A DNA stretch of 34,780 nt from the NCBI GenBank assembly GCA_016781105.1, contig JADDRA010000068.1, positions 1 to 34,780 of the forward strand, given 5' to 3'. Position 1 is the stretch's first letter. Every line of letters starts with the position of its first letter. Source of the DNA: Actinomycetota bacterium (GTDB lineage: Bacteria; Actinomycetota; Acidimicrobiia; Acidimicrobiales; CADCSY01). A program made the position numbers and the translations under genes. Of this stretch, positions 14,415 to 32,430 are shown one piece after another. The notes under the pieces were generated by a model. The model saw nothing but the letters and a program-made list of their open reading frames with translations, made no database searches and was not told the DNA's origin.

Positions 14415-14852
14415 TCAGACGTCGAGGGAGCCCGGGCCGTCCCGCCCACTGGCTCGCCGGCTCCACGCCGCGTGCCGCGGCTGGGGACCGAGCACCCGGA
14501 CCCGCAGGCGTCGGGCGAGGCCGGCCCGCACCAGCGCGCGCACCGGGGGGATCAGCAGGGCGAGGCCCAGGGCGTCGCTGAGGAAGCCGGGGGTGAGCAT
14601 GAGCGCGCCCCCGAAGAGGATGAGGAAGCCGTCGACCACCTCGGTGGTCGGTACCCGCCCGGCTCGGAGCTGCGCCTGGACCCGCCGCACAACCCCGAGG
14701 CCCTCCCGCTTCATCAGCCAGCCGCCGACCACCCCCATGAGGACGAGCAGGGCGATGGTCTTGAGCGCGCCGATGGCCGAGCCCACCTGGATGAGCACGG
14801 CGAGCTCCACCAGGGGGACCACCAGGAACACCACGACGAAGAGCGCGGCCAC
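14415..14852 (-). CDS. fxsA: FxsA-family membrane protein
   Basis: A 145-residue cytoplasmic-membrane protein of the FxsA family (E. coli FxsA suppresses F exclusion of phage T7). Hydrophobic segments are at 3-22 (LFVVVFLVVPLVELAVLIQV), 26-45 (IGALKTIALLVLMGVVGGWL) and about 76-104 (FLILFGGALMLTPGFLSDAL), the last with the family's GGALMLTPGFLSD signature. The C-terminal 30 residues are basic and probably cytoplasmic. The GTG at 14852 is used because the first hydrophobic segment starts immediately after it. A TAGCCT box (14864-14859) ends 6 nt upstream, again suggesting a leaderless transcript. Confidence 0.85.
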   Translation of the reverse strand: MAALFVVVFLVVPLVELAVLIQVGSAIGALKTIALLVLMGVVGGWLMKREGLGVVRRVQAQLRAGRVPTTEVVDGFLILFGGALMLTPGFLSDALGLALLIPPVRALVRAGLARRLRVRVLGPQPRHAAWSRRASGRDGPGSLDV

Positions 14853-14936
14853 GCTCCAAGGCTACCCATGGCCTCCTGCGCCACCGCCGCTCCCGCCACC
14901 GCCGCGTCCCGAGCCTGCGCCGGCGAGCGGACCCTC

Positions 14937-14942
14937 TAGCCT
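14937..14942 (+). promoter_or_regulatory. -10 box TAGCCT for the membrane-anchored protease-like gene
   Basis: TAGCCT ends 8 nt before the ATG at 14951. There is no Shine-Dalgarno sequence between them. Confidence 0.4.
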
Positions 14943-14950
14943 TCGGGACC

Positions 14951-15889
14951 ATGTCCGCCGAGGAGCGCCCTCCCCCTCGCCGTGCCCTACCCCTCGGCGA
15001 GCCCCTCGCCGAGCCCCTCGCCGAGCGTGGCTGGCGGGCCCCCCGCTCGCTGCTCGGGACCTGCGCCCTGATGCTCGCCGCCTCCGTGGGCGCCGCGTTC
15101 AGCGGTGCGGTCCTCTACGCCTACTACGCCTACCGCCTCGACCAGGGCCTCGAGTACGCCTCCACCTTCGACGAGCGCCTCGACACGGCCGTGGCCATCA
15201 TCGACACCGAGCAGGAGGAGGCCAAGGCCGCGGTGCGGGCCGAGCTCGAGCCCCTGCAGCGCCTGGGAGCCACCGGCGACACCCTCGAGCAGCTCGTCGA
15301 GCGCGTCTCGCCGTCGACCTTCTTCGTCACCACGCTCGACGAGGACGGCGCACCCTCGGTGGGCAGCGCCTTTGTGGTGTTCTCCGACGCCGAGCAGAGC
15401 TTCCTGCTCACCTCCTTTGCCACCGTGCGGGCCGCCACCCGTGCCCCCGGCCCCGAGGTGCGGGTCCGCCAGGGCGACGAGGAGCTCGTGGCCACCCTGG
15501 TGAGCTGGGAGGAGGCCCGCGACCTGGCCCTGCTGACGATCCCCCGGGGCGGGGTCGAGCGCCTGGCCTGGGCCGGCGGCACCCAGACCGGTGAGCGGGT
15601 GTTCTCCATCTCGGGCCTCGGAGGGGCGGGCGGATCGGCCAGCCAGGGGCTCGTGGGCGACGTGAGCGCGGCGGGCATCCAGCACGACACACCCGTGGGC
15701 ATGCAGTTCCAGGGCGCGCCCCTGGTCAACGCCAGCGGTGAGGTGGTGGGCGTCAGCTCCCGGACCTACGCGCCCCTGGGCTTCACGCCCCAGGCCGTGT
15801 ACTTCGCCCCCCCCATCGGCGACGCCTGCATCGAGCTGCTGGCCTGTCCCGATGACCGGGGCCGGGCCGAGGGGGTCGGCGGGGGCTGA
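14951..15889 (+). CDS. Membrane-anchored trypsin-fold (HtrA-like) protein lacking catalytic His and Ser
   Basis: A 312-residue protein: a short cytoplasmic N-terminus with the repeat GEPLAEPLAE, one membrane segment at about 33-58, an acidic coiled-coil-prone stretch (85-115), then a chymotrypsin-fold domain. The fold is visible from SPSTFFVTTLDEDGAPSVGS, LLTSFATVRAA, EEARDLALLTIP, VFSISGLGG and FQGAPLVNASGEVVGVSS. In active HtrA proteases the corresponding sites read TNAHV, DLAVL and GNSGGPL. Here the His site reads TSFATV and the Ser site QFQGAPL, while the Asp is kept. The protein is therefore probably a non-enzymatic envelope sensor or scaffold. No PDZ domain follows. It is convergent with the PBP gene, 35 bp apart. 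Confidence 0.75.
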   Translation: MSAEERPPPRRALPLGEPLAEPLAERGWRAPRSLLGTCALMLAASVGAAFSGAVLYAYYAYRLDQGLEYASTFDERLDTAVAIIDTEQEEAKAAVRAELEPLQRLGATGDTLEQLVERVSPSTFFVTTLDEDGAPSVGSAFVVFSDAEQSFLLTSFATVRAATRAPGPEVRVRQGDEELVATLVSWEEARDLALLTIPRGGVERLAWAGGTQTGERVFSISGLGGAGGSASQGLVGDVSAAGIQHDTPVGMQFQGAPLVNASGEVVGVSSRTYAPLGFTPQAVYFAPPIGDACIELLACPDDRGRAEGVGGG

Positions 15890-15924
15890 CCCGCCGGCCA
15901 GCGGGCGCGCGGCTGGGCGAGGAA

Positions 15925-18195
15925 TCAGCCCGAGTCGCGGTCGTCGTCCCGGTCTCGGCCGGACTCCCGGTCGTCGGCCCGGTCGTCGTCGGCCCGGTCG
16001 TCGTCCTCGTCGGACTCGTCGGCGTCCTCGTCGGCCCGGTCGTCGTCCTCGTCGGCGTCCTCTTTGCGGTCACGTTCCCGGCGCAGTCGGTCGAACAGCT
16101 CGTCGAGGTCGGTGCCAGCCTGGTCGTCGCGGCCGGGGCGCAGGGTCGTGGTGGTGGCCGGGGGTGGGTCGGCCACCGGGGCGGGAAGCTCCTCCACGTA
16201 GGCGCCGGAGTCGGTGCCCCGGGGCTCGCGCAGGGCACGCACGTCGAAGCCGCCCCGGGCCCGGCGGCGCAGGATCTCGGCCAGGTCGGTGATGGGGGCC
16301 GGCTCGGTGAAGTCGGTCACGGCCACGTCGGCCAGCGCACCCCGCATGAAGGACTCCCACGTGGCGGCGGGCAGGCTTCCTCCGGTCATGGCCCGCACCC
16401 CCTTGATCCCCACCAGGGGGCGGGGGGCATCGGCGTAGCCCATCCACACCGACGTCGACAGTGTGGGGGTGTAGCCCACGAACCAGGCGTCGCTGTGGCC
16501 CTGGGCCGTGCCCGTCTTGCCTGCGGCGGGACGGTCGATCCCGTTGTCGCCGGCGGTGCCGCCGGCCTGGAGCACGCCCTCGAGGATCTCGTTGACGTTG
16601 TCGGCGGTGATCTCCTCGAGGACCCGTGTGCGCTCGGGCTCGGCGTTGTCCTCCAACACGTTGCCCTCGGCGTCGAGGACGCGCACCACCGGGGTGGGCT
16701 CGGCCCGCTCCCCCCTGGCGGCGAAGACCCCGAAGGCCGAGGACATGTCGAGGGGGGACACGCTCAGGGAGCCGAGGGCGACCGACAGCGCGTGCACCCC
16801 CTCCTGGTAGTCGGAGCTGGAGATGCCCATGCGCTTGGCCAGCGCCATCGTCTCGGGCACCCCCACGTCCTGGAGGAGTTGCACGTAGGCGGTGTTGACC
16901 GACTGGCGGGTGGCGCTGCGCAGGTCGATGCGCCCGTAGGACGACCCCCCGAAGTTCTGGAACGACGTGCCGCCGACCTCCATGGGGCTGGCGCCCGAGT
17001 AGGTGCGGGTGGGGGCGATGCCCTCCTCCAGGGCCTGGGCCAGGACGAAGGGCTTGAAGGCCGAGCCGGGCTGGCGGCCGGTGCCGCCGCCGGACGCCCC
17101 GAGGGCGAGGTTGACCCGGGACGACGCGAAGTCGCGCCCGCCGACCAGGGCCTTGACGAAGCCCGTGAGCGGCTCGACCGCCACCAGGGACGCCTCCAGT
17201 GGTGGGTCGGTGCCGTCCAGCGTCTCGCCCACCGACCGCTCCGCCTCCTCCTGCAGGCGGCGGTCGAGCGTGGTGTAGATGCGCAGCCCCTGCTGGTAGA
17301 CGGCGTCCTCCCCGTAGCGCTCGGCCAGGTGGCGCTGGAGGTAGTCGAGGAAGTACGGGTAGGCCGTCTCGGCTTGCTCCCGGGGATGGACCACGGTGGC
17401 GCCCCCCTCGGGCGGCACGGCGCCGGGGGTGGCCAGCCACACCGGCTGGGCCAGGGCCTCGGCGTGCTGGTCGGGCGTGATCATGCCCTCGCCCAGCATG
17501 GCGTCGAGGATGAAGCGCCGGCGCTCCTCGGCCAGCGCCGGGTTGCCTCGGGGCTCGTAGCGACTGGGAGCGGGGATGAGGCCGGCGAGCAGGGCCGACT
17601 CGGACAGGCTGAGGTCGCTGACCGGCTTGTGGAAGTAGGTCTCGGCCGCCGCCCCCACCCCGTAGGCACCTTCGCCCAGGTAGATCCGCTCCAGGTAGCG
17701 GAACAGGATCTCGTCCTTGTCGACCTGGCGGTCGAGCTGGCTGGCCAGGATCGCCTCGCGCACCTTGCGGGTGAAGCTGCGCTCGCTGCCGACGTAGGCG
17801 TTCTTCACGTACTGCTGGGTGATGGTGGAGCCGCCCTGGACCAGCTCCTGGTTGCGCACGTCGGCCCACAGCGCCCGGAAGGTCCCCCACACGTCGACCC
17901 CGCTGTGGGAGTAGAAGCGCCGGTCCTCCCCCGCCACCACCGCCTGCTTCAGCACCTCGGGGATGTCGGCCCGCTCGATGGGCTTGGTGCTGTCGAACTG
18001 GCGGAACACGCCGATCTCGTTGCCGTTGATGTCGTAGATGCGGCTGATGGCGGCCTCGACGCCGGGCTTGGCCGCCGGGAGGCTCGCCGGCAGGGGCAGG
18101 AAGAGCAGCGCGGCCAGGATCGTGCCCGTCGCCACGAGGGGGACCACCGCGGCGCTGACGACGAGGAGGGCGAACGACCGGCCGACGACGCGCAT
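15925..18195 (-). CDS. Class A penicillin-binding protein (bifunctional peptidoglycan synthase)
   Basis: A 756-residue cell-wall enzyme. A membrane anchor lies at 8-36. The GT51 glycosyltransferase domain has catalytic Glu90 in AGEDRRFYSHSGVD, GGSTITQQYVKNAY (121-134) and IYLGEGAYGVGAAAETYF. The transpeptidase domain has SAFK (Ser378-Lys381), SVN (432-434) and KTGT (560-563). It polymerises glycan strands and crosslinks stem peptides outside the membrane. No PASTA domain is seen, unlike some actinobacterial PBPs. The last 50 or so residues are an Asp-rich tail built of DDDRAD-like repeats. The ATG at 18195 gives a short cytoplasmic start; TACACT lies 9 nt upstream (18210-18205). Divergent from selA. 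Confidence 0.95.
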   Translation of the reverse strand: MRVVGRSFALLVVSAAVVPLVATGTILAALLFLPLPASLPAAKPGVEAAISRIYDINGNEIGVFRQFDSTKPIERADIPEVLKQAVVAGEDRRFYSHSGVDVWGTFRALWADVRNQELVQGGSTITQQYVKNAYVGSERSFTRKVREAILASQLDRQVDKDEILFRYLERIYLGEGAYGVGAAAETYFHKPVSDLSLSESALLAGLIPAPSRYEPRGNPALAEERRRFILDAMLGEGMITPDQHAEALAQPVWLATPGAVPPEGGATVVHPREQAETAYPYFLDYLQRHLAERYGEDAVYQQGLRIYTTLDRRLQEEAERSVGETLDGTDPPLEASLVAVEPLTGFVKALVGGRDFASSRVNLALGASGGGTGRQPGSAFKPFVLAQALEEGIAPTRTYSGASPMEVGGTSFQNFGGSSYGRIDLRSATRQSVNTAYVQLLQDVGVPETMALAKRMGISSSDYQEGVHALSVALGSLSVSPLDMSSAFGVFAARGERAEPTPVVRVLDAEGNVLEDNAEPERTRVLEEITADNVNEILEGVLQAGGTAGDNGIDRPAAGKTGTAQGHSDAWFVGYTPTLSTSVWMGYADAPRPLVGIKGVRAMTGGSLPAATWESFMRGALADVAVTDFTEPAPITDLAEILRRRARGGFDVRALREPRGTDSGAYVEELPAPVADPPPATTTTLRPGRDDQAGTDLDELFDRLRRERDRKEDADEDDDRADEDADESDEDDDRADDDRADDRESGRDRDDDRDSG
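15943..16072. repeat. Imperfect repeats encoding the acidic tail of the PBP
   Basis: Plus-strand units based on GTCGGCCCGGTCGTCGTC recur, the longer form with a following CTCGTCGG appearing twice about 42 bp apart. They encode DDDRAD and DEDADE-type peptides. The period is a multiple of three, so copy-number change would keep the frame. Confidence 0.6.
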
Positions 18196-18204
18196 GGCGA
18201 AGCG

Positions 18205-18210
18205 AGTGTA
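18205..18210 (-). promoter_or_regulatory. -10 box TACACT for the penicillin-binding protein gene
   Basis: On the minus strand TACACT ends 9 nt before the ATG at 18195. No Shine-Dalgarno sequence is seen in between. Confidence 0.4.
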
Positions 18211-18290
18211 CGGCTGGCACCGCGGTGGCCACGGGTCGGCGGGCGGGTGCCAGTCGGGCACACCGCCATCCCGGACGGCAGTATGGGCTC

Positions 18291-19559
18291 GTGAGCGAGA
18301 CCGCCCGGCCGCCCTCGGTCGACGCCCTGGCCCGGTCGCTCGCCGGCACCGGCCTGCCGCAACCCATGCTGGTGGAGGTGGCGCGTGCGGCCATCGCCGC
18401 CGGTGACCCCGCGTCGGCCCTCCGGCGAGCCGCGGCCGCAGGACGGTCCCTGCTCCAGCCGGTCATCAACGCCACCGGGGTCCTGCTCCACACCAACCTC
18501 GGCCGGGCCCCGGTGCCCGGTGCCTCCGACGGCACCCGCTACTCCAACCTCGAGCTCGACCTCGAGGATGGTCGGCGAGGCTCGCGCCAGGATCGGGCCG
18601 GGCCACTGCTGGCCCGGGCGTGCGGCGCCGAGCGAGCCCTGGTGGTGAACAACTGCGCGGCGGCGGTGGTCCTGGTCCTCGCCGCCCTGGCCCGCGATCG
18701 CGACGTGGTGGTGAGCCGGGGGGAGCTGGTCGAGATCGGCGGCGGGTTCCGCATCCCCGAGGTCCTGGCCCAGTCCGGTGCGCGCCTGGTCGAGGTGGGC
18801 ACCACCAACCGCACTCGCCTGGCCGACTACCGGGCTGCCGTGCAGGCCCCGGGTGCCGACGTGGGCCTCGTCCTCAAGGTCCACGCCTCCAACTACCGCA
18901 TCAGCGGCTTCACCGAGACGGTCGAGGTCGCCGCCCTGGCCGGCGTGGGCCCACCGGTGGTGGCCGACATCGGCTCGGGCCTGCTCGACGCCGCCACCCC
19001 CTGGCTGGCCGACGGTCCCCCACCGTGGCTGGCCAACGAGCCCGCCGCCCGCCAGACCCTGGCCGGGGGTGCCGCCCTGGTCACCTTCTCGGGCGACAAG
19101 CTGCTCGGCGGGCCCCAAGCCGGCATCGTCGCCGGCCGGGCCGACCTGGTGGCCGCCTGCGCCTCGCATCCCCTGGCCCGAGCCCTGCGGCCCGGGAGCC
19201 TGGTCCTGGGCGCCCTCCAGGAGACGGCGCTGGCCTACCTGCGCCGGGACGGGGCGGCCATCGGCTTCTGGCGCATGGCCACTCTGCCCGTCGCCGACCT
19301 GGAGGCCCGGGCCGCGGCGCTCGGCGTAGGCCGGCCGGTGGCCTGCGCCTCGGTCACCGGGGGCGGCACCCTGCCCGGGGTGGAGATCCCCTCGGCCGGG
19401 GTGGCGGTGGAGGGCGACCACCGCGCCGCCCTGCGGGCCCGGACCCCGCCCGTCGTCGCCCGGGTGGCCGAGGGCGTGACCGTGTGCGACCTGCGCACGG
19501 TCGCCCCCGCCGACGATGCCGAGCTGTCCGCCGCCCTGGCCGCGGTGGCGAGACCCTGA
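18291..19559 (+). CDS. selA: L-seryl-tRNA(Sec) selenium transferase
   Basis: A 422-residue PLP enzyme that converts seryl-tRNA(Sec) to selenocysteyl-tRNA(Sec) with selenophosphate. Characteristic stretches are PVINATGVLLHTNLGRAP, LVVNNCAAAVVLVLAALA, RGELVEIGGGFRIPEVL, EVGTTNRTRLADYRAA and TFSGDKLLGGPQAGI, with Lys270 the Schiff-base lysine. It is shorter than the roughly 460-residue E. coli enzyme: a deletion sits near SDGTRYSNLELDLEDGRRGS. GTG 18291 is preferred because it begins directly before the helical N-terminal domain; an upstream ATG at 18225 would overlap the PBP promoter region. selB follows about 0.9 kb downstream on the same strand. No selD or tRNA(Sec) gene was recognised in the window. 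Confidence 0.92.
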   Translation: MSETARPPSVDALARSLAGTGLPQPMLVEVARAAIAAGDPASALRRAAAAGRSLLQPVINATGVLLHTNLGRAPVPGASDGTRYSNLELDLEDGRRGSRQDRAGPLLARACGAERALVVNNCAAAVVLVLAALARDRDVVVSRGELVEIGGGFRIPEVLAQSGARLVEVGTTNRTRLADYRAAVQAPGADVGLVLKVHASNYRISGFTETVEVAALAGVGPPVVADIGSGLLDAATPWLADGPPPWLANEPAARQTLAGGAALVTFSGDKLLGGPQAGIVAGRADLVAACASHPLARALRPGSLVLGALQETALAYLRRDGAAIGFWRMATLPVADLEARAAALGVGRPVACASVTGGGTLPGVEIPSAGVAVEGDHRAALRARTPPVVARVAEGVTVCDLRTVAPADDAELSAALAAVARP

Positions 19560-19632
19560 CACGGGGCTCAGCAGCGGGGGCGGGCGCCGGCTCGCGCGGC
19601 GTCCCCGGTCAGGTCGTCCAGGGCGGCGCCAG

Positions 19633-19992
19633 TCAGGGCGGATCAGGCCCGGAGCGGACCAGTTCTTCGGGCGCCTCGTCGGTGACCACCGTGCCGTCTG
19701 GGGCGATCCAGCGCCAGCGTCCGGAGCCGCCCTGGTAGCTCCATCCCTCGTAGGTCTTGAGCCGATGGTGGTAGGCGCACACGCGGGCCAGGGCCGACAG
19801 CTCCGTGCGCCGGGTCAACGCCCAGCCGTCGCGATGGTCGATCTCGAGGTGGCGGGACACCCCACAGCCGGGGACGACGCAGGTGGGGTCGCGGGCCTCG
19901 AGCGCCCGGCGCTGCTGGGCGGTCACCCCTCTTGGATTTCGAGCAATCTTGCCGCTCCTGTCGAGGACACCTGGTCGCCATCGTCGTTCCGA
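19633..19992 (-). pseudogene. C-terminal remnant of a DUF222/HNH endonuclease-like protein
   Basis: The frame ending at the TGA at 19633 encodes the HNH end of the DUF222-HNH proteins abundant in actinobacteria: ALEARDPTCVVPGCGVSRHL, EIDHRDGWAL, LARVCAYHHRLKTYEGW, then GRWRWIAPDGTVVTD. The zinc-binding and His residues of the HNH core (CVVPGC, EIDH, YHHRLKT) are intact. The roughly 300-residue N-terminal DUF222 domain is missing; upstream of about 19990 the frame carries no recognisable family sequence. I read it as a fragment left by deletion between selA and selB. Confidence 0.7.
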
Positions 19993-20295
19993 GGAAACTC
20001 GGATCGGCGGAGCAGGCCGCGCCACGATGACAGCTGATCGAAGCTGCGGTGGGCCCGCCCGAGCGCGTCCCTGAACCCGGCGCAGCGCCATGCAGCCAAG
20101 TGCCGAAGAGACGCCCGGCCCGTCGCCATGATGCCCTTCCCGTCGTGCTGGCCCGAGTGACACCCCCATCCCCCGTGCGGAGCTGACCGGGCCTCTGCTC
20201 GTGCCGTCGCCCTGATCTGTCCGCCCCTCTGGAGCGCCTGGTCAGCTCGGCCGTGGTCGACTCCGCCGGGGTGGTCCTGGGCGAGGTCGTCACCC
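19993..20295. other. Intergenic stretch between the HNH remnant and the repeats; no confident gene
   Basis: No ORF here has convincing family sequence. A plus-strand frame from 20214 to a TGA at 20337 reads APLERLVSSAVVDSAG and VVLGEVVTRL, faintly like a PRC-barrel strand pattern, but it has no start codon or promoter and runs into the 19-bp repeats. It may be another fragment. Confidence 0.4.
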
Positions 20296-20333
20296 GGCTG
20301 GACTGCTGTTGGCCGGCTGGACTGCTGTTGGCC
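20296..20333. repeat. Two tandem copies of a 19-bp unit
   Basis: GGCTGGACTGCTGTTGGCC is repeated perfectly at 20296-20314 and 20315-20333, followed by a partial third copy GGCTG. No function is assigned. Confidence 0.85.
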
Positions 20334-20360
20334 GGCTGAACACCCGGTGCCGGGCTCCGT

Positions 20361-20450
20361 ACCCAGGCTGCGATGATCCGCCGGGCTGCCTACCCACCTG
20401 CGATGATCCACCGGGTTCCTCTACGTCCGGCGATAATCCGTCGGTGCATG
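20361..20450. repeat. Three 30-bp tandem repeats running into the selB start
   Basis: The units start at 20361, 20391 and 20421. Each carries CGATGATCCGCCGG or a close variant at the same offset (20371, 20401, 20431). The third copy (CGATAATCCGTCGG) supplies the putative -10 GATAAT and the GTG start codon of selB. They could be operator copies or duplicated promoter cores. Confidence 0.75.
20432..20437 (+). promoter_or_regulatory. -10 box GATAAT for selB
   Basis: GATAAT ends 6 nt before the GTG at 20444 and lies in the third 30-bp repeat. The equivalent positions in the first two repeats read GATGAT. Confidence 0.45.
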
Positions 20451-22174
20451 TCGTCGCCACCGCTGGCCACGTCGATCACGGCAAATCGACGCTCGTCCAC
20501 GCCCTGACCGGCATCGACCCCGACCGGTTCGGCGAGGAGAAGGCCCGGGGGCTCACCATCGACCTGGGCTTCGCCTGGACCACCCTGCCCTCGGGCCGGG
20601 GCCTGGCCTTCGTCGACGTCCCCGGCCACATCCGCTTCATCAAGAACATGCTGGCCGGGGTGGGGGCGGTGGACGCCTGCCTGTTCGTGGTCGCGGCCAC
20701 CGAGGGCTGGAAGCCCCAGTCCGAGGAGCACCTGCGCATCCTCGAGCTGCTCGGGGTCAGCCACGGCCTGGTGGCGCTGACCAAGGTGGCGGTGGTCGAC
20801 GACGACCACCGGGAGCTGGCCGGCATGGACGTGGCCGACCACCTGGCCGGTACCTTCCTCGAAGGGGCCGAGGTGGTCGAGGTGGACGCCCCCAGCGGCG
20901 CCGGCATCGAGGAGCTGCAGGCGGCGCTCGACCGGCTGCTGGCCACCACGCCCCCCGCCGCCGACCTCGGCCGGCCCCGCCTGTGGGTCGACCGCAGCTT
21001 CGCGGCCAAGGGCTCGGGCACGGTGGTGACCGGGACCCTCACCGGGGGGCGCATAGCGGTGGACGACGAGCTCGTCGTCGTCCCCGGCGAACGCTCGGTG
21101 CGGGTCCGGGCCCTGCAGAGCCACCAGGAGTCCCTGCCCGCCGTGGGACCGGGCCGGCGGGTGGCGGTGAACCTCGTCGGTGTGGGCCACGACGAGGTCC
21201 AGCGGGGCGACGCCCTGGTGCGATCGGCGCAGTGGCACCTCACCCGACGCCTCGACGCCAGCCTGGCCGTGCTCGACTCGCTCGACCACGAGGTGTCGCG
21301 GCGGGGCGCCTACGTGGCCTACCTGGGCTCGGGCGAGCGCCCGGCGCGCCTGCGGGTGCTCGGCACCTCGGCCCTCGGACCCGGGGAGTCCGGGCTGGTG
21401 CGCCTCCACCTGGCCGATCCCCTGCCCCTCGTCCCCGGTGACCGCTACGTGCTGCGGGAGACGGGACGGGCCGAGACCGTTGGCGGCGGCGAGGTGCTCG
21501 ACGTCGATCCCGTCCTGCCCGCGGCCCGGGCCCGGCCCGACCGCTCGGTCGCCCGGGTGGTGGCCGAGCGGGGCTGGGTGGAGGCCGACCTGCTCCAGCG
21601 CCTCACCGGCGAGACCCAGGCGCCCCAGGTCGGCCCCTGGGTGGTCGACCCCTCGGCCCTGGCCCAGACCCGCCAGGCGGTCGAGGAGGCGGTCGACGGC
21701 GCCGGCCCCCTCGGGCTCGACGTGGCCGGGCTCGATCCCCGCCAGCGGGCCGTGCTCGCCACCCTCGACGACGTCGTCATCGAGGCCGGACGGGCCCGCC
21801 GGCCCGACGTGGTCGACCCGCTGCTCGACCACCCCTACCTCGCGACCCTGGAGGCCGCTCCGTTCACCCCTCCCCCGCCCGACGGCGTCGACCGGGGCGA
21901 GCTGCGGGAGCTGGTGCGCCGGGGGCTGGTGCTCGAGAGCGACGGCACCTGGTTCTCCCCCGGCGCGGTGGAGCGGGCGGCCGCCATCCTCGTCCCCCTG
22001 TTCGACGCCCACCCGCGCGGGGTCACCGTGGCCCAGATTCGCGACGCGCTGGGGACCAGCCGCAAGTTCCTGCTCCCTCTGCTGGGCCTGCTCGACGGGC
22101 GGGGCATCACCCGGCGGCGAGGTGACCTGCGCATCGCCGGCCCGCGCCTGCCCGGGCCTTCACGCCAGCCCTGA
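20444..22174 (+). CDS. selB: Selenocysteine-specific translation elongation factor
   Basis: A 576-residue GTPase that brings selenocysteyl-tRNA(Sec) to UGA codons marked by a SECIS element. G1 motif GHVDHGKST at residues 8-16, G2 region GLTIDLGFAW, G3 DVPGHIRFIKNML and a TKVAVVD G4-like motif (TKxx instead of NKxD, as in other SelB proteins). EF-Tu-like domains II and III follow (RSFAAKGSGTVVTGTLTGG), then C-terminal winged-helix repeats, the last with AQIRDALGTSRKFLLPLLGL, which bind SECIS RNA. GTG 20444 is chosen because the G1 motif lies 5-10 residues from the N-terminus in this family. The frame is open upstream to 20309 through the repeats. Ends 9 bp from the convergent nfeD-like gene. 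Confidence 0.92.
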   Translation: MHVVATAGHVDHGKSTLVHALTGIDPDRFGEEKARGLTIDLGFAWTTLPSGRGLAFVDVPGHIRFIKNMLAGVGAVDACLFVVAATEGWKPQSEEHLRILELLGVSHGLVALTKVAVVDDDHRELAGMDVADHLAGTFLEGAEVVEVDAPSGAGIEELQAALDRLLATTPPAADLGRPRLWVDRSFAAKGSGTVVTGTLTGGRIAVDDELVVVPGERSVRVRALQSHQESLPAVGPGRRVAVNLVGVGHDEVQRGDALVRSAQWHLTRRLDASLAVLDSLDHEVSRRGAYVAYLGSGERPARLRVLGTSALGPGESGLVRLHLADPLPLVPGDRYVLRETGRAETVGGGEVLDVDPVLPAARARPDRSVARVVAERGWVEADLLQRLTGETQAPQVGPWVVDPSALAQTRQAVEEAVDGAGPLGLDVAGLDPRQRAVLATLDDVVIEAGRARRPDVVDPLLDHPYLATLEAAPFTPPPPDGVDRGELRELVRRGLVLESDGTWFSPGAVERAAAILVPLFDAHPRGVTVAQIRDALGTSRKFLLPLLGLLDGRGITRRRGDLRIAGPRLPGPSRQP

Positions 22175-26600: not shown

Positions 26601-26678
26601 CGGGAAGTGGCGCAGCTTGGTTAGCGCGCAGCGTTCGGGACGCTGAGGTCGCGGGTTCGAATCCCGCCTTCCCGACCA
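26601..26678 (+). tRNA. tRNA-Pro (anticodon CGG)
   Basis: A complete cloverleaf. The acceptor stem CGGGAAG (26601-26607) pairs with CTTCCCG (26668-26674). The anticodon stem CAGCG/CGCTG encloses the loop TTCGGGA, giving anticodon CGG for codon CCG. The T-arm GCGGG-TTCGAAT-CCCGC is perfect. Discriminator A and an encoded CCA (26676-26678) follow. Accessory genes begin right after it, so its 3' end is a likely integration target. Confidence 0.97.
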
Positions 26679-26735
26679 GAAAGCCGCTGGTCACGGCGGT
26701 GCGCCACCGAGCGTGCTGGCCGAGAAGTCGGATTC

Positions 26736-26755
26736 AGACCACAGATAGACCACAG
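26736..26755. repeat. Short direct repeat downstream of tRNA-Pro
   Basis: AGACCACAG occurs at 26736-26744 and 26747-26755, an 11-bp period. It lies in the 214-bp gap between tRNA-Pro and the antitoxin gene, which otherwise shows no gene. It could be an integrase arm site, an unproven suggestion. Confidence 0.35.
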
Positions 26756-26880
26756 CCGTTGCGGCCACATGCGGGCATGAACGGTGACTGACGGACATTC
26801 GTGGACCGTCGCCAGGTGCAATGAACCCGGCGGCAAGCGGCAGCGTGGAGGAAAGAGGAGAGGTCGTCACAGACCCTCCC

Positions 26881-26886
26881 TATGCT
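26881..26886 (+). promoter_or_regulatory. -10 box TATGCT for the antitoxin-like gene
   Basis: TATGCT ends 6 nt before the ATG at 26893. This favours that ATG over the in-frame ATG at 26821. Confidence 0.5.
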
Positions 26887-26892
26887 CGTACG

Positions 26893-27555
26893 ATGGCCAA
26901 CGTGACGAGTTCGCTGATCGGGCGGGGCATCTACGACCCGACCGAAGCGGCACGCCTCGTCAGGGTTCACCCCGACACGCTTGATCGCTGGACTACCGGC
27001 AAGCGCCCCTTGGTGACGCCCGCCTTTGAGCGATTCTTCGACTTCGAAGACCTCGTGAGTCTGCTTGTGATCGCAGAACTGTGGAGGCGCGGCGTGCAAA
27101 CGAGTGAGATCCGCCGGGGTGTCGAGGTTCTCGCGGAGGTGCTGGATGTCGATCGCCCGCTCGCCCATATCGATGCGCCCAAGCGCCTTGCGACCGTTGG
27201 ACGATCGTTTTTCGCCAACATCGACCAGTGGGCTGATGCCGGCAGAGGGTTTCAGCTGGCTTTCCAGCCGATGATTGAGCCAGTCCTGCGACCGCTCGAG
27301 TACGACACTCACGGCATGGCGCACCTGTGGCGACCGCTCGACCGTGTGGCCGTGACGCCTGAGGTCCAGGCAGGCACTCCTTGCGTCGAGGCGACCCGTG
27401 TGCCGACCACGACCATCGATGGCTTGGTTCGCGTCGGCGAGGACGTCGAGGACATCGCCTTCGACCTCGATCTGGAGATCGACCAGATCGAAGCCGCCCT
27501 GAGATTCGAGGCCGCCCTGGGCAACCGGCTTCTCGGCCAGAAGACATTCGCCTAG
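26893..27555 (+). CDS. DUF433-type antitoxin with N-terminal HTH domain
   Basis: A 220-residue protein. The N-terminus (IYDPTEAARLVRVHPDTLDR, WTTGKRPLVTP) looks like a MerR/excisionase-type helix-turn-helix. The C-terminus (PEVQAGTPCVEATRVPTTTI, DGLVRVGEDVEDIAFDLDLE) is a DUF433 domain, a winged helix found in antitoxins of PIN-like toxin pairs. It probably represses its own operon and neutralises the PIN-like protein downstream. Codon use is less GC-biased than that of flanking chromosomal genes, consistent with acquisition. The TAG is followed 1 nt later by an AGGAGG Shine-Dalgarno for the next gene. The start is set by the TATGCT box. Confidence 0.75.
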   Translation: MANVTSSLIGRGIYDPTEAARLVRVHPDTLDRWTTGKRPLVTPAFERFFDFEDLVSLLVIAELWRRGVQTSEIRRGVEVLAEVLDVDRPLAHIDAPKRLATVGRSFFANIDQWADAGRGFQLAFQPMIEPVLRPLEYDTHGMAHLWRPLDRVAVTPEVQAGTPCVEATRVPTTTIDGLVRVGEDVEDIAFDLDLEIDQIEAALRFEAALGNRLLGQKTFA

Positions 27556-27570
27556 CAGGAGGGTCGCACC

Positions 27571-28065
27571 ACGCCGGCGCGACCAGCGATCAGGCTCCTT
27601 TTCGACGAACTGCTCTCATGGCGTGTCGCCAGCGCTCTTCGGGAGCTTGGCATCCGAGCCAGCCACGTCGGTCACGAGGGGGACAAGGCACCTCCGCGAG
27701 GTTCCAGTGACGCCGTCGTGCTGGAGCACGCACGGACGACGAATCAGGTCGTCGTCACGTCGAACCACGACATGATCCTGCTCTGCGCGGAGGAGAACGA
27801 GTCGGTCATCTGGATCGACCCGCGGGGCCGTCAGCTCAAGCGCACGGAGTTCGTGCCGCTCGTGTTCGGGCGCGTCGAGGAGTGGCAGGAGCTGCTCGCC
27901 GCCGCAGATGGCCCGATCTGCGTTCACGTCATGCGCACGAGGACGGAGGTGCTCGAACTCGATCGAGCCCGGCAACTGGTCCTGCAACGGATGCGGCGCC
28001 TACAAGCGCGCAAGCGAGCTCAGGCGCGCAAGCAGTCACCAGGACCGAGTCTCGAAGGGACATGA
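27571..28065 (+). CDS. PIN-like (DUF5615-type) toxin with no ATG/GTG/TTG start; likely ACG start
   Basis: The frame after the antitoxin stop encodes a PIN-like protein: IRLLFDELLSWRVASALREL, GIRASHVGHEGDKAP, SSDAVVLEHARTTNQVVVTS and NHDMILL. These match the DUF5615 pattern (RLLFDENLS, ALRELG, LVTxDxDF-like), including the first catalytic Asp. No ATG, GTG or TTG lies upstream of IRLLFDE in frame. AGGAGGG (27557-27563) is positioned 8 nt before an in-frame ACG at 27571. An ATG-to-ACG change would give this arrangement; translation from ACG would be weak, or the toxin is dead. A later in-frame GTG at 27718 would lose the catalytic N-terminus. 164 residues if started at 27571; the tail is Arg/Lys/Gln-rich. 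Confidence 0.65.
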   Translation, partial: TPARPAIRLLFDELLSWRVASALRELGIRASHVGHEGDKAPPRGSSDAVVLEHARTTNQVVVTSNHDMILLCAEENESVIWIDPRGRQLKRTEFVPLVFGRVEEWQELLAAADGPICVHVMRTRTEVLELDRARQLVLQRMRRLQARKRAQARKQSPGPSLEGT

Positions 28066-28123
28066 GCGTCGATTACCGGTCGTAGCGAGCTTCGTCGTAA
28101 CCAAGGTCCAGCGACCGGGACAC

Positions 28124-28180
28124 GAATCTTGAGATTCCTCGCGAAATTTTCCCCCGCTCGTCGGCCTAGTAAGGCATAGG
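28124..28180. other. Candidate origin of transfer upstream of the relaxase
   Basis: The 172-bp gap before the relaxase is the most AT-rich stretch around. It holds a perfect 6-bp inverted repeat GAATCT/AGATTC (28124-28129, 28132-28137), an A/T run GCGAAATTTTCCCCC (28141-28155), and a second small repeat CCTA/TAGG (28165-28168, 28177-28180). MobF relaxases usually nick next to such repeats close to their own gene. No nic consensus was identified. Confidence 0.35.
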
Positions 28181-28237
28181 ACAGGACCGAACCCACTCCG
28201 TACAGACGAGTGCATTGCCGCCGGAGGGTCGCCGGCG

Positions 28238-30934
28238 GTGATGCGGGTGACGACTATCAAGTCCCGCGGGCACGGGGTGGAGGCCACCGTCGCCTACTAC
28301 GCCGGGCTGGCCGCCGACCAGGCCCGCCAGGGTGGCCGCAGCCGGGGACCGATCGACTACTACCTCGACCCAGCCGAACCGCCCGGGCGGTGGTGGGGCG
28401 ACGGCCGGGACGGCCTGGGCCTGGGTGCCGAGGTGGCGCCCGAGGAGCTGGAGGCCTTGCTCACCGCGCGCCACCCGGTCACCCGCGAGCGCCTGGGTCG
28501 GGGCTACGGCCCTGACTCGGCCCGGGGCTTCGACGCCACCTTCTCGGCCCCCAAGTCGGTGTCGGTGCTGTGGGCCCTGGCCGACGACCCCTTCGTGCGC
28601 GCCGAGGTCGCCGCCGCCCACGACAGCGCGGTGGACGCCGCCCTGTCCTGGTTCGCCGGTCACGGCTCGGTGACCCGCCGGGGCACCGACGGCGTCCTCC
28701 AGCTCGACACCAAGGGTCTTGTCGTGGCGGTCTTCCGACAGCACACCAGCAGAAGCGCGGATCCACAGCTGCACACCCACGCCCTCGTCATGGCCAAGGT
28801 CCAGGACGCCGCTGGCGACTGGCTGGCCCTCGACGCCCGGTTCCTGAAGAACCAGCAATGCGGCATCGGCTGGGTCTACGCCTCGGCGCTGCGCTCCGAG
28901 CTCACGGCGCGCCTCGGGCTGGGGTGGGGCGAAGTCGCCAAGGGCCACGCCGACCTCACCGGCGTCCCTGCGCATTTGCTCAAGGTGTTCTCGGCCCGGG
29001 CCGCCCAGGTCAACGCCACCCTGGCCCACTACGTGGCACGCTGGGTCGAGGACCACGACGGGGCCGAGCCCGATGCCCGCACCCTCTACCGCCTGGAGCG
29101 CCGGGCCGCCTTCGACAGCCGCCCGCCCAAGGGGCCGGTGGGCGAGGCCGAGGCCCTGCGGGCCGACTGGCGGGCCCAGGCCGCCGCGGTCGGCGTGGAC
29201 GGCATCACCGTCGACACCACCACCCCCGAGCTACCGGGAATGGCCGCCATTGACCGGGAGGCCGTGGTGGCCGAGGCCCTGGTCCGCGTGAGTACCGAGT
29301 CGAGCACCTGGCTGCACGCCGACGTCTCCCGCCACGTCGCCACCCTGCTCCCCGCCGGCGCCGCTGGCTCGGGCAAGGGCCTCGTAGCCCTGGTCGACGA
29401 GCTGACCGCCCTCGCCGCCGGCCGCTGCGTGGAGCTGCAGCCGGACGTGCCGGCCCACCTGGCCCGGCGCCGGGACGGGCGACCGGTGACCGAGGCGGTA
29501 ACGGAGCGTTGGCTGACCACCGCCGCCGTGCTGGACCAGGAGTCCCGGCTCCTGTCCTGGGCCCACGGCGCCGCCGGACCGGCGCCGGCTGAGCGCGCCG
29601 ACGCCCACGCCGCCGTCGTCGAGGCGATCGCCGGGCACGAGCGTCTGGTGCTGGTGGTGGGCCCGGCCGGAGCAGGCAAGACCACCGCAGTGGGCTCCGC
29701 CGCCCGCCGGCTGGCCCGCCAGGGCCGCCAAGTGCTCGGCCTCGCGCCATCGGGCAAGGCGGCCGACGTGCTGGCAAAGGAGACAGGCTGGCCGGCCACC
29801 ACGCTGGCCAAGCTGCGGGCCGACGCTGGGCGACCGGGCTGGCGGGCGCCTCCGGACGGCACCACGGTGGTGGTGGACGAGGCCGGCATGGCCGGCACCG
29901 ACGACCTCGACGCCCTGGTGACTCTGGTCGAGCGCCATTGCTGGCGCCTGGTGTGCGTGGGCGACCCGGCCCAGCTGCCGGCCGTGGGCCGGGGTGGGAT
30001 GTTCGAGCTGTGGTGCGAGCGCCTGGGAGCCCACCACCTCGGCGAGGTCAGGCGCTTCAACGAACCGTGGCAGGCCCGGGCCAGCCTGGCCCTGCGCCGG
30101 GGGGAACGAGCGGCGGCCGCCGCCTACGCCGCCCACGGGCGCCTCGACACCGTGCATCCGGCCCTGGTGGCCGAGCGGGTGGCCCGGCTCCACCAGGCTG
30201 AGGAGCGCGAGGGCCGCAGCCTGTCGGTCACCACCGCCTCGGCCGGCGTCGCCCAGGACGTCAACGTGGCCATCCAGCGCAAGCGCAACCCCCGTCGGGA
30301 GGGGCCCTGGGTGGCCCTGGCCGACGGCACGGTGTCCTTCGCCGGCGACCGCGTGGCCAGCCGCCGCAACGACCGCATCCGCACCGACGCCGGCACGCCG
30401 GTGCGAAACCGTCACACCTGGGCGGTGGAGGCGGTGGGGGCCGACGGCTCGCTGGTGGTCTCCCATCCCGTCCGGGGCCGGGTTCGGCTGCCGGCGGCCT
30501 ACGTGGCCCGCCACGTGGAGTTGGGCTGGGCCGTGACCGGCTACGGCACGCAGGGCGACACCACCGACACCGGGATCTGCGTGGTGGAGCCCTCGAGCTC
30601 CCGCTCGGGGGTCTACGTGGGCATGACCAGGGGCCGGGGCACCAACCTCGGCCTGGTGCTCGACCCGACCGGCTTGGCTGACCCGGAGGAGGCCTTCGTC
30701 GCCGTCATCGCCCGCCCACCCAACGCCCGCACCGCCCTGGCCGTGCGGGAACGCCTCCGGGGCACGAGGGCTCCCGATTGGGAGGTGCCGGGCCCTGAAG
30801 GCCCGCCCGCGCCGGCCGGGAAGGCGCCCCCGGTGCCCGAACCGGTGCTGGAGGACGATGCGGCCGAGCGCATGCGCCGAAGGCTGCAGCAGCTCACGAG
30901 CCACCGGCCGCGGAGGAGATCGCTCCGGCGCTGA
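28238..30934 (+). CDS. MobF (TrwC-type) conjugative relaxase-helicase
   Basis: An 898-residue protein that would nick and unwind mobilised DNA. The relaxase domain (1-300) has an N-terminal TVAYYAG tyrosine motif, the FDATFSAPKSVSVLWAL core and the metal-binding histidines in QHTSRSADPQLHTHALV (His169, His179, His181). A RecD/TraI-like SF1 helicase follows: Walker A GPAGAGKTT near 475, VVVDEAGM, GDPAQLPAVGRGGMFEL and GYGTQGDTTDTGICVV, YVGMTRGRG. The extreme C-terminus is Pro-rich, then basic. GTG 28238, with GGAGG 9-10 nt upstream, or the adjacent ATG 28241 may start it. No coupling protein, TraG/VirD4 or secretion gene is near, so the element would need a helper to transfer. The gene is fully open, unlike the excisionase that follows. 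Confidence 0.93.
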   Translation: MMRVTTIKSRGHGVEATVAYYAGLAADQARQGGRSRGPIDYYLDPAEPPGRWWGDGRDGLGLGAEVAPEELEALLTARHPVTRERLGRGYGPDSARGFDATFSAPKSVSVLWALADDPFVRAEVAAAHDSAVDAALSWFAGHGSVTRRGTDGVLQLDTKGLVVAVFRQHTSRSADPQLHTHALVMAKVQDAAGDWLALDARFLKNQQCGIGWVYASALRSELTARLGLGWGEVAKGHADLTGVPAHLLKVFSARAAQVNATLAHYVARWVEDHDGAEPDARTLYRLERRAAFDSRPPKGPVGEAEALRADWRAQAAAVGVDGITVDTTTPELPGMAAIDREAVVAEALVRVSTESSTWLHADVSRHVATLLPAGAAGSGKGLVALVDELTALAAGRCVELQPDVPAHLARRRDGRPVTEAVTERWLTTAAVLDQESRLLSWAHGAAGPAPAERADAHAAVVEAIAGHERLVLVVGPAGAGKTTAVGSAARRLARQGRQVLGLAPSGKAADVLAKETGWPATTLAKLRADAGRPGWRAPPDGTTVVVDEAGMAGTDDLDALVTLVERHCWRLVCVGDPAQLPAVGRGGMFELWCERLGAHHLGEVRRFNEPWQARASLALRRGERAAAAAYAAHGRLDTVHPALVAERVARLHQAEEREGRSLSVTTASAGVAQDVNVAIQRKRNPRREGPWVALADGTVSFAGDRVASRRNDRIRTDAGTPVRNRHTWAVEAVGADGSLVVSHPVRGRVRLPAAYVARHVELGWAVTGYGTQGDTTDTGICVVEPSSSRSGVYVGMTRGRGTNLGLVLDPTGLADPEEAFVAVIARPPNARTALAVRERLRGTRAPDWEVPGPEGPPAPAGKAPPVPEPVLEDDAAERMRRRLQQLTSHRPRRRSLRR

Positions 30935-31002
30935 GGAGATACGTCGCGAGATTCATGGTCCTCGACGGCATAGCCAGGGCAACCACCGACCAAGGAGGAG
31001 AC

Positions 31003-31192
31003 ATGCCCCAGCGCACGACCGACCGGCCGCCCTCATCGACCTGCCCGCCGTGGCCGAGCGCCTCGCGTGAACCAGCGCTACGTCCGGCGGCTGGTCGCAG
31101 ACAGGCGCATCCCCGTCATCAAGCTCGGCCGCCTGCTCCGGTTCGACCCCGCTAACATCGAGGAGTTGATCGGCAGGGCCAAGCGTCCCTGA
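31003..31192 (+). pseudogene. Excisionase-like HTH protein with two apparent frameshifts
   Basis: AAGGAGGAGAC precedes an ATG at 31003. Read through two frame changes, the sequence gives MPQRTTDRP, then LIDLPAVAERLA, then VNQRYVRRLVADRRIPVIKL and GRLLRFDPANIEELIGRA, a typical MerR-like excisionase (HTH_17) of about 63 residues. The changes lie near 31030 and 31067. Each has the sign of one lost base. The second is at GCGTGA, where GTG overlaps the TGA, so a coupled restart at 31067 (41 residues) could still express the recognition helix. The integrase follows 87 bp later, the normal xis-int order. Confidence 0.65.
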
Positions 31193-31278
31193 CCACCGGT
31201 ACCCTTCGGCACACGCACTCGGGGCTGGTGCGTTCTCGCAGTCCTCCTCAAGCCATCAGGGTCAGAGGAGGCACGTCC

Positions 31279-32430
31279 GTGGCGTCGATCCGCAAGAAGC
31301 CGAGTGGGGCGTGGGAGGCGCGCTATCGCGATGCCGCCGGCGTGATGCACGCTCGCACGTTCCCGACCAAGTCGGCTGCCAGCCGGTGGTCCAAGGAGAT
31401 GGAGACCGACCTCAGCCGGGGGGACTGGGTCGACCCCCGCATGGCCCGGACGACGTTCGGCGCGTGGGCGAAGGAGTACCTGGCCACGATCGTCCATCTC
31501 CGAGCCGTCACGCGCGGGGACTACGAGCGTCAGCTTCGGGTCCACATCCTGCCGGCCTTCCAGGACGCGGGGATCGCGCAGATTTCTCAGGTCGACGTCC
31601 GCCGCTTCATCGCGGAGCTGCGGGCCGCCGGGCTGGCGCCCAAGACGCTCCAGAAGATCCGGCTCGTGCTCCGCCAGGTGCTCGAGACGGCCAGGTCGTC
31701 TGGTGCCATCCGAGCCAACCCGTGTGACGGCGTCCGGATCCCGCGAGCCCAGCCGAAAGAACCGCTCTTCCTCACCGCCGGCGAGGTGGAGGCATTGGCC
31801 CAGGCAACCCGGCCGCCGTACGACGTACTGGTGAGGTTCGCTGCCGCCACCGGGCTGCGGCCGAGTGAGCTCTGCGGGCTTCGGGTCGGGCGCCTGAACC
31901 TGGACCGGGGCTCCGTCGAGGTCTCGGAGGCACTCACCGTCGTGGCCGGACGGACGGAGCTGGGCCCGATCAAGAACGGCGTGCGCCGCACCGTGCAGCT
32001 GTCGCGGTCGCTGTGTGACCAGCTCGGGCGACACCTGGCGGAGCGGGCACGTCAGGTCGGACGTCCGCTCCAGCCGGACGATTTCGTGTTCGTCGCTCCG
32101 GAGGGCGGCCCGCTCCGCCGGGACCTGCTGCACAAGCGCATCTTCCGGCCGGCTGTCGAGCTGGCTGGCCTCGCGCCCGGCCTGCGGGTCCACGACCTGC
32201 GCCACACCTGTGCGTCGCTACTGATCGGCCTCGGAGCCCACCCGAAGGTCATCCAGGAGTGGCTGGGTCACAAGTCGATCACGGTCACCATCGACGTCTA
32301 CGGCCACCTGTTCCCGTCGCTCAGCGAGGCCTTGGCCGAACGCCTCGACGAGGTTTTTCGCCAGGCCGACGTTCCGCCGGCGCCGCAGCCGTCAACTGTC
32401 ATCGACCTGAGCTCGGTACGGCGGACGTGA
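31279..32430 (+). CDS. Tyrosine site-specific integrase
   Basis: A 383-residue phage/ICE-type integrase. The N-terminal arm-binding domain is at 1-55 (IRKKPSGAWEARYRDAAGVM), the SAM-like core-binding domain at 58-145 (TTFGAWAKEYLATIV, VDVRRFIAELRAAGLAPKTL), and the catalytic domain follows. Catalytic residues: Arg194 (ATGLRPSELCGLR), Lys232 (PIKNGVRRTV), His305 and Arg308 (VHDLRHTCASLL), His331 (WLGHKSITVT) and nucleophile Tyr341 (DVYGHLFPS). GTG 31279 has AGGAGG 8 nt upstream. It would recombine the element with a chromosomal attachment site; the nearby tRNA-Pro is the obvious candidate, though no second copy of the tRNA 3' end was found in the window. Confidence 0.95.
   Translation: MASIRKKPSGAWEARYRDAAGVMHARTFPTKSAASRWSKEMETDLSRGDWVDPRMARTTFGAWAKEYLATIVHLRAVTRGDYERQLRVHILPAFQDAGIAQISQVDVRRFIAELRAAGLAPKTLQKIRLVLRQVLETARSSGAIRANPCDGVRIPRAQPKEPLFLTAGEVEALAQATRPPYDVLVRFAAATGLRPSELCGLRVGRLNLDRGSVEVSEALTVVAGRTELGPIKNGVRRTVQLSRSLCDQLGRHLAERARQVGRPLQPDDFVFVAPEGGPLRRDLLHKRIFRPAVELAGLAPGLRVHDLRHTCASLLIGLGAHPKVIQEWLGHKSITVTIDVYGHLFPSLSEALAERLDEVFRQADVPPAPQPSTVIDLSSVRRT

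Follow-up and report, generated by a model that had tools for sequence, protein, structure and literature searches.

Why would an actinobacterium keep an intact gene for a protease whose catalytic residues are gone, and keep it beside the gene for a cell-wall synthase? The question is raised by a stretch of 34,780 nucleotides from a member of the Acidimicrobiales, the whole of which is called the window here. A preliminary description of this DNA had proposed that a membrane-anchored, HtrA-like protein with its His and Ser sites lost has a binding or sensing role in the envelope.

The gene and its protein

The locus is arranged as follows. Coordinates are window positions, and near rows are the aligned sequences of the near family, the orthologues from 35 genomes of the class, the window's included.

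14415..14852, - strand: FxsA-family membrane protein gene, divergent neighbour (PF04186, 122.8 bits)
14951..15889, + strand: pseudoprotease gene, membrane-anchored, HtrA-fold, 312 residues (open reading frame, Trypsin_2 domain, orthologues)
15047..15124, + strand: predicted membrane helix, residues ~33-58, with a GAxxSG motif at residues 47-52 (hydropathy, conservation)
15137..15283, + strand: helical stalk, residues 63-111, of lower conservation, probably coiled-coil (low-confidence model; coiled coil judged by eye)
15284..15853, + strand: Trypsin_2-like domain, residues 112-301 (Pfam, profile matches)
15410..15427, + strand: TSFATV, residues 154-159, the lost catalytic His site, with Ala157 at 15419-15421 (alignment to active paralogues)
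15521..15523, + strand: Asp191, the kept catalytic Asp, within RDLAL, residues 190-194 (Asp in 34/34 readable near rows)
15704..15724, + strand: QFQGAPL, residues 252-258, the lost Ser and oxyanion-hole Gly site, with Gln254 at 15710-15712 (alignment)
15827..15847, + strand: terminal Cys pair, Cys293 and Cys299 (35/35 near rows; active short paralogues too)
15925..18261, - strand: class A PBP gene, convergent, with GTG at 18261 and an alternative ATG at 18192 (Pfam, tree)

The open reading frame starts with ATG, has 312 codons and a GC3 of 0.94, and Pfam places a Trypsin_2 domain on residues 138-268 of its product (48.3 bits, where the cut-off is 27.6). When a profile of the family is compared with the PDB, the top matches among the 60 listed are all HtrA-type proteins, including a DegP-like protein (22kg, E 5.2e-15) and DegS (3lgt, E 4.5e-9). 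From its N terminus the protein runs through a variable N-tail, a single hydrophobic helix and a helical stalk into the protease domain, ending about 11 residues past it. The best 19-residue segment in the hydropathy profile starts at residue 37 and none exceeds 1.3 after residue 70, which predicts one membrane helix; the protease domain would lie outside the membrane. The fold and the position first described, exactly 14951-15889 on the forward strand, are thus borne out. The same cannot be said of the 'promoter-bearing' gene, since a scan for sigma-70-like promoters found none in 14700-16100, a scan that is blind to other promoter types, which may be present.

By sequence profile the domain is that of the HtrA/Deg proteases (S1C; DegP, DegQ, DegS and mycobacterial HtrA), and the DegS layout likewise includes a membrane anchor. 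Unlike these proteases, the window protein lacks the His, the Ser, the oxyanion Gly and a detectable PDZ domain, for which Pfam gave no match at E values up to 10. Its genome holds six other Trypsin_2 matches, among them two HtrAs with PDZ. Two AlphaFold models built on seven close rows reached pLDDT values of 37.8 and 43.5; the C-terminal lobe failed in both, which leaves some of the N-lobe in the second model as the usable part. With such a poor model as query, the best Foldseek matches were HtrA proteases (E 4.6e-4, TM-score ~0.31).

MarP (the Rv3671c family) is also membrane-anchored, trypsin-like and actinobacterial, but it carries a triad and a membrane domain of the Colicin_V type, as can be seen in the MarP of the window genome. 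The window protein was rejected as a MarP: its score for NCBIfam MarP_fam_protase is 19.8 bits, far below the cut-off of 250, while a separate, true MarP is found at G000:C32 with 283.9 bits. No Colicin_V-type multi-helix membrane domain is present in the window protein, which has one hydrophobic peak and no Pfam match to such a domain.

Loss of the catalytic residues across the family

Orthologues were sought at three depths. Among 59 genomes, the window's own included, 36 gave matches and 33 were counted as having an orthologue, that of G047 being a fragment that stops at a contig end; the weak matches in G013, G028 and G045 were left out, the first two of which keep active-site residues. 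When 198 genomes of the class were searched, G240, from another order, and G091 joined them, giving the 35 near genomes. In 296 genomes of the phylum searched at 1e-10, 16 had matches: three of the order (G000, G024, G091), eleven deep members of the family and two active short forms (G247, G338). The eleven deep relatives share 26-42% identity over the best match and belong to classes other than the window's, at least two in number, as the class of G413 (24 genomes) excludes G447, G369 and G456, which are also outside the window's class. A membrane helix is present in all deep relatives with a readable N terminus.

Aligned with active paralogues from the same genome and order, whose motifs read TN(F/Y)HV, D(L/V)A and G(N/S)SGGP, the window protein reads TSFATV, RDLAL and QFQGAPL. 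The catalytic His has become Ala157, the Asp stays as Asp191 and the Ser has become Gln254, in line with the lost His and Ser and the kept Asp of the initial reading of the DNA; two residues before the Ser column, the oxyanion Gly is replaced by Gln252. The near orthologues share these losses. His is found at its site in 0/34 readable rows and Ser in 0/35 (Gln in 28, Arg in 5, Ala in 2), the Asp column is Asp in 34/34 readable rows, and column 252 is Gly in 2/34 readable rows. No other residues that could complete a triad are visible in the sequence, and no His or Lys is invariant across the 35 near genomes.

By simple counting, uncorrected for base composition, dN/dS between the window gene and five close relatives is 0.14-0.18 in the protease domain and 0.4-1.1 in the N-tail, and the distant relative L036 gives 0.44 for the protease domain against the window. 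Chance can be discounted as an explanation, since none of the near orthologues examined has the His or the Ser and purifying selection acts on the gene. As judged from these sequences, the window protein is confirmed to be a conserved, catalytically dead protease. The gene was rightly called intact: decay is ruled out by the purifying selection and by a triad loss that is fixed in the 35 near genomes. The relative in G012 was also rejected as a broken gene, its apparent in-frame stop preceding a plausible ATG start and the membrane helix.

An intact triad in orthologues, named at the outset as evidence against a dead protease, is found in none of the near family and in one deep relative, G413 (L200:7927-8859). 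This protein, which is PBP-linked, keeps His, Asp and Ser (TNYHL, HDLAL, ARASGGPL) without the oxyanion Gly. G325, from the same family-level group and 53-63% identical to G413 over two matched pieces, has Gln, Asn and Thr in the triad columns. In the remaining deep members the His site is Lys, Arg or Ser and the Ser site is Leu, Ile, Ala or Thr; the sequence from G374 does not reach the His site, and that from G481 has Gly in the Asp column. The Asp that is invariant in the near family has thus been lost in two deep members, G325 and G481. Taken together, the kept Asp191 and the full triad of G413 could be read as signs of a protease that still cuts through other residues. We regard this as very improbable, given a near family with no invariant His or Lys, a Ser site occupied by Gln, Arg or Ala, and an oxyanion Gly that is replaced in the window protein and most relatives.

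Two further features might point to an HtrA-fold protein that senses redox state or metals: the terminal Cys pair, Cys293 and Cys299, found in 35/35 near rows and 11/11 deep relatives (with spacing one residue wider in G447), and His245, found in 29/34 readable near rows. The Cys pair also occurs in the active short paralogues, which makes a structural disulfide the more likely explanation, and His245 is not invariant; a sensor of this type is accordingly doubtful.

A first protease tree included long-branched MarP and other rows, and the position of the dead clade in it was unclear (89/99, long branches meeting). A second tree, built with the active-site columns omitted, without those rows and with the deep relatives, is clearer. 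Its rows, picked after the first, comprise 24 of 31 near rows, 8 of 17 other HtrAs, the 11 deep relatives and 6 active short forms. Here the 24 near and 11 deep rows, all of them dead or PBP-linked and G413 among them, form one clade (99/97), in a tree whose bootstrap is not fully settled. The active short HtrAs form a separate clade (97/89), and so do the PDZ HtrAs. Parsimony requires five losses as long as the triad was never regained: in the near clade; in G447, G369 and G456; in G374; in G325; and in G335, G354, G393, G471 and G481. The count of five depends on weak branches (the deep group, 86/63; G374 with its neighbours, 89/69), and the starred branches alone give three losses, namely G325, the G335-G354-G393-G471-G481 group and the rest. 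With a regain in G413 two changes suffice, but the regain of both His and Ser in place is unlikely. Repeated triad loss is what this tree implies in the absence of regain. The PBP-linked family may go back to a protease whose catalysis was later lost repeatedly; the case for such an active ancestor comes from one genome, G413. The differing replacement residues fit either separate losses or drift after loss.

The active short membrane HtrAs of the order (G000:C35, G051:C6, G024:C23, G028:C14) have the membrane segment, stalk, Trypsin_2-type domain and Cys pair in common with the window protein, and differ in their full triad, in lacking a conserved GAxxSG helix motif and in forming their own clade. 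One of them, G000:C35, is encoded in the window genome itself, with a similar layout, the terminal Cys pair and a full triad. It is conceivable that the dead protein regulates an active HtrA, through mixed oligomers or by holding substrates, as the magnetosome pseudoprotease MamO activates MamE (PMC4794232). A strong match to the active short form (E 2.1e-36 or better) is found in only 8/59 genomes, 7 of which also have the pseudoprotease, compared with 33 genomes for the pseudoprotease; a query with the short form at 1e-6 finds some match in 57/59, mostly weaker, which leaves room for regulation of other HtrAs. Since strong matches are so few, the pseudoprotease mostly lives without the active short form. 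Nor was a second gene matched by the family queries in the gene-bearing loci L044-L074, L133 and L134. Regulation of an active HtrA is improbable on this evidence, if less so than the sensor above.

MamO is also a close parallel in kind. As described in PMC4794232, it has an HtrA-type domain with a degenerate active site, a non-Gly oxyanion position and non-catalytic work, and the window protein is alike in these respects. It differs in its organisms and setting and in having a TauE domain, which is absent from the window protein (Pfam; the reading frame ends after the protease domain). As for the pair of metal-binding residues of MamO, the window family offers His245 in most rows and no invariant His.

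Conservation in the membrane helix can be set against that of the protease domain. Chance-corrected conservation (kappa) is 0.52 for region 28-62, 0.50 for the protease domain, 0.31 for the stalk and 0.23 for the PBP's own anchor. In 24 near rows Gly52 is found 24 times, Gly47 22 times and Ala48 18 times, and all three are present in 8/8 deep rows counted; none of six active short forms has a GAxxSG-like pattern. A single-pass anchor conserved to this degree suggests a partner in the membrane.

Association with a class A PBP lineage

The neighbour of the window gene is a class A PBP (Pfam: Transgly 213.5 bits, Transpeptidase 98.7 bits). The two genes are convergent, with stop codons 35 bp apart. 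A class A PBP gene adjoins the pseudoprotease gene in 39/46 gene-bearing genomes (35 near, 11 deep), in two arrangements and at least three classes, so that the cell-wall synthase first noted at this locus proves to be a widespread companion. Much of the preliminary interpretation can be kept, both the conserved dead protease and its link to a cell-wall synthase; the promoter is not supported, and a binding or sensing activity is a conjecture. These counts come from assemblies many of which are fragmented, and they ignore species phylogeny.

In 33 genomes the arrangement is convergent: 24 near (the window, 22 others of the order and G240) and 9 deep, with gaps of up to 125 bp in eight of the deep loci and 1152 bp in G447. 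In G012 the gene match ends ~170 bp from the PBP match, and a gap of 929 bp reflects the stop upstream of the likely start. Being convergent with the PBP, the gene is not co-transcribed with it in 33/39 genomes. In the other six (G016, G050, G052, G022, G027, G091) the PBP lies upstream and co-directional, and in G016 and G027 the two frames overlap by 4 bp, taking the earliest possible start. Elsewhere, two ABC transporter genes separate the pseudoprotease gene from the PBP in G047, and in G007, G369 and G456 the contig stops less than 200 bp from the gene. In G011 no PBP match is found in the 1.0 kb downstream of the gene to the contig end, and a PBP is at the edge of another contig. In G015 and G057 (L063, L066, L126, L127) the gene is beside NUDIX and the PBP is apart, on a contig with selA.

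By itself, the convergent adjacency says little about a functional tie, because much of the surrounding neighbourhood is conserved as well. Beyond the PBP, 18/24 near convergent loci have SelA, which SelB, NfeD and ArsA often accompany, and in many of these loci NUDIX and MBL genes lie at the opposite flank; SelA is also there in 3/9 deep convergent loci. This broad synteny, which extends to other classes, can be used to argue that the adjacency is simply an old conserved neighbourhood, and that the protein has no particular relation to the PBP but acts as a holdase chaperone or envelope sensor whose ligands are misfolded proteins, peptides or wall polymers. The loci of G015 and G057, where the NUDIX neighbour is kept and the PBP is not, favour this view, as does an S1C-like domain in RsgI9 that is said to bind polysaccharide (PMC12203970). 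The co-directional loci speak against it. There the PBP and the gene stand together, and FxsA, NUDIX, MBL, SelA, SelB, NfeD and ArsA were not found in the fetched stretch of any of the six; in G052 a 34% match to another window gene lies 4.6 kb away. The PBP lineage also travels with the gene, as described below. A general holdase or sensor is a possibility that we rate well below a dedicated PBP partner, at perhaps one chance in four.

The co-directional loci have a further regularity. A CarboxypepD_reg-like gene precedes the PBP in 6/6 of them by tblastn and in 3/3 where full genes were scanned by Pfam; the fragment in G016, scanned alone, gave no Pfam match. Genes with this domain lie directly upstream of the PBP at L069:4764-5660, L070:3579-4997 and L071:4939-5919. 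Their product is perhaps a third member of the PBP/pseudoprotease unit.

The window genome encodes five transglycosylase-domain proteins, and the question is whether a particular one goes with the gene. In a PBP tree, a branch with SH-aLRT 99 separates off a side of 34 rows that holds 31/31 tested PBPs of gene-bearing genomes, together with three paralogues (G000:C100, G020:C45, G040:C26), beside which no pseudoprotease gene was found in the fetched stretches. The PBPs of G002 and G007, which have the gene, are partial and were left out. From genomes without the gene, 0/10 PBPs fall on that side. These ten come from 26 such genomes, of which 5 gave weak matches that were not placed (best E 1.5e-54 to 2.1e-80) and 11 gave none at E 1e-40. 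In a second PBP tree, from which four long-branched rows were dropped (the G000:C66 paralogue and the PBPs of G037, G030 and G045, leaving 7/10 rows from gene-less genomes), nine deep PBPs join the gene-bearing side with an SH-aLRT of 93, which is not strong.

Other observations concern the surroundings. Of 16 loci around MarP genes elsewhere in the phylum, three (L181, L182, L183) have MBL and ArsA genes nearby, two of them with a PBP and one with a NUDIX gene, partly like the pseudoprotease neighbourhood; the pseudoprotease gene may conceivably have taken over the place of MarP. In the window itself, selA and selB (Pfam) lie beyond the PBP at 18225-22174; ARAGORN reports a tRNA-Pro only, and a selenocysteine tRNA was not found. 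That tRNA-Pro (26601-26678), a TrwC-type relaxase/helicase gene (28238-30934) and a phage-type integrase gene (31228-32430) make the region 26601-32430 look like an integrated mobile element; GC is lower at 26-28 and 32-34 kb.

A proposed role and its precedents

With the locus, the anchor and the PBP tree in hand, a role can be proposed. We see an even chance that the window protein serves the adjacent class A PBP as a partner that is anchored in the membrane and does not catalyse. Its helix would pack against the anchor of the PBP or against itself, the stalk would set its reach, and the dead protease domain would bind the folded or folding PBP and thereby stabilise, position or activate it. 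Such a partner probably arose from a membrane HtrA that could still cut and was already at work next to the PBP, cutting being lost several times and the partnership kept. That a dead HtrA could be retained as a helper is plausible because HtrA-type proteins do meet PBPs. For example, pneumococcal HtrA reportedly degrades altered PBP2x. The loss of HtrA1 together with PrsA is reported to impair the folding of PBP2a (PMC6858329).

The nearest functional precedent is CofA, a small single-helix (bitopic) membrane protein described as binding the membrane domain of a corynebacterial class A PBP (PMC7205459). Its authors stated in 2020 that, to their knowledge, a class A PBP cofactor had previously been undescribed in actinobacteria (PMC7205459). 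Like CofA, the window protein has a single helix and a link to one class A PBP; for CofA that link is a demonstrated interaction, for the window protein a genetic association. CofA is not known to have a protease fold. The window gene has a genetic association with one class A PBP, which is supportive of a cofactor, not required for one, the CofA gene lying near a DNA gyrase gene (PMC7205459). Among the papers listed in literature searches, which covered few subscription journals and were judged by title or start of abstract, none dealt with a pair of HtrA-fold pseudoprotease and class A PBP.

The same reading can be extended, with confidence falling somewhat short of even, from the window to the family: across several actinobacterial classes, these HtrA-fold proteins would be dedicated partners of one class A PBP lineage, descended from an active protease, with catalysis discarded independently in several lineages (five on the tree) and the partnership kept. 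Conservation would then rest with the binding domain and the face of the membrane helix rather than with the active site. G413, with its full triad, and G325, with none, offer a natural comparison of whether proteolysis matters for the PBP. There are known examples of HtrA pseudoproteases and of class A PBP cofactors, and the two kinds would be brought together by an HtrA-fold pseudoprotease that goes with a PBP lineage in several classes.
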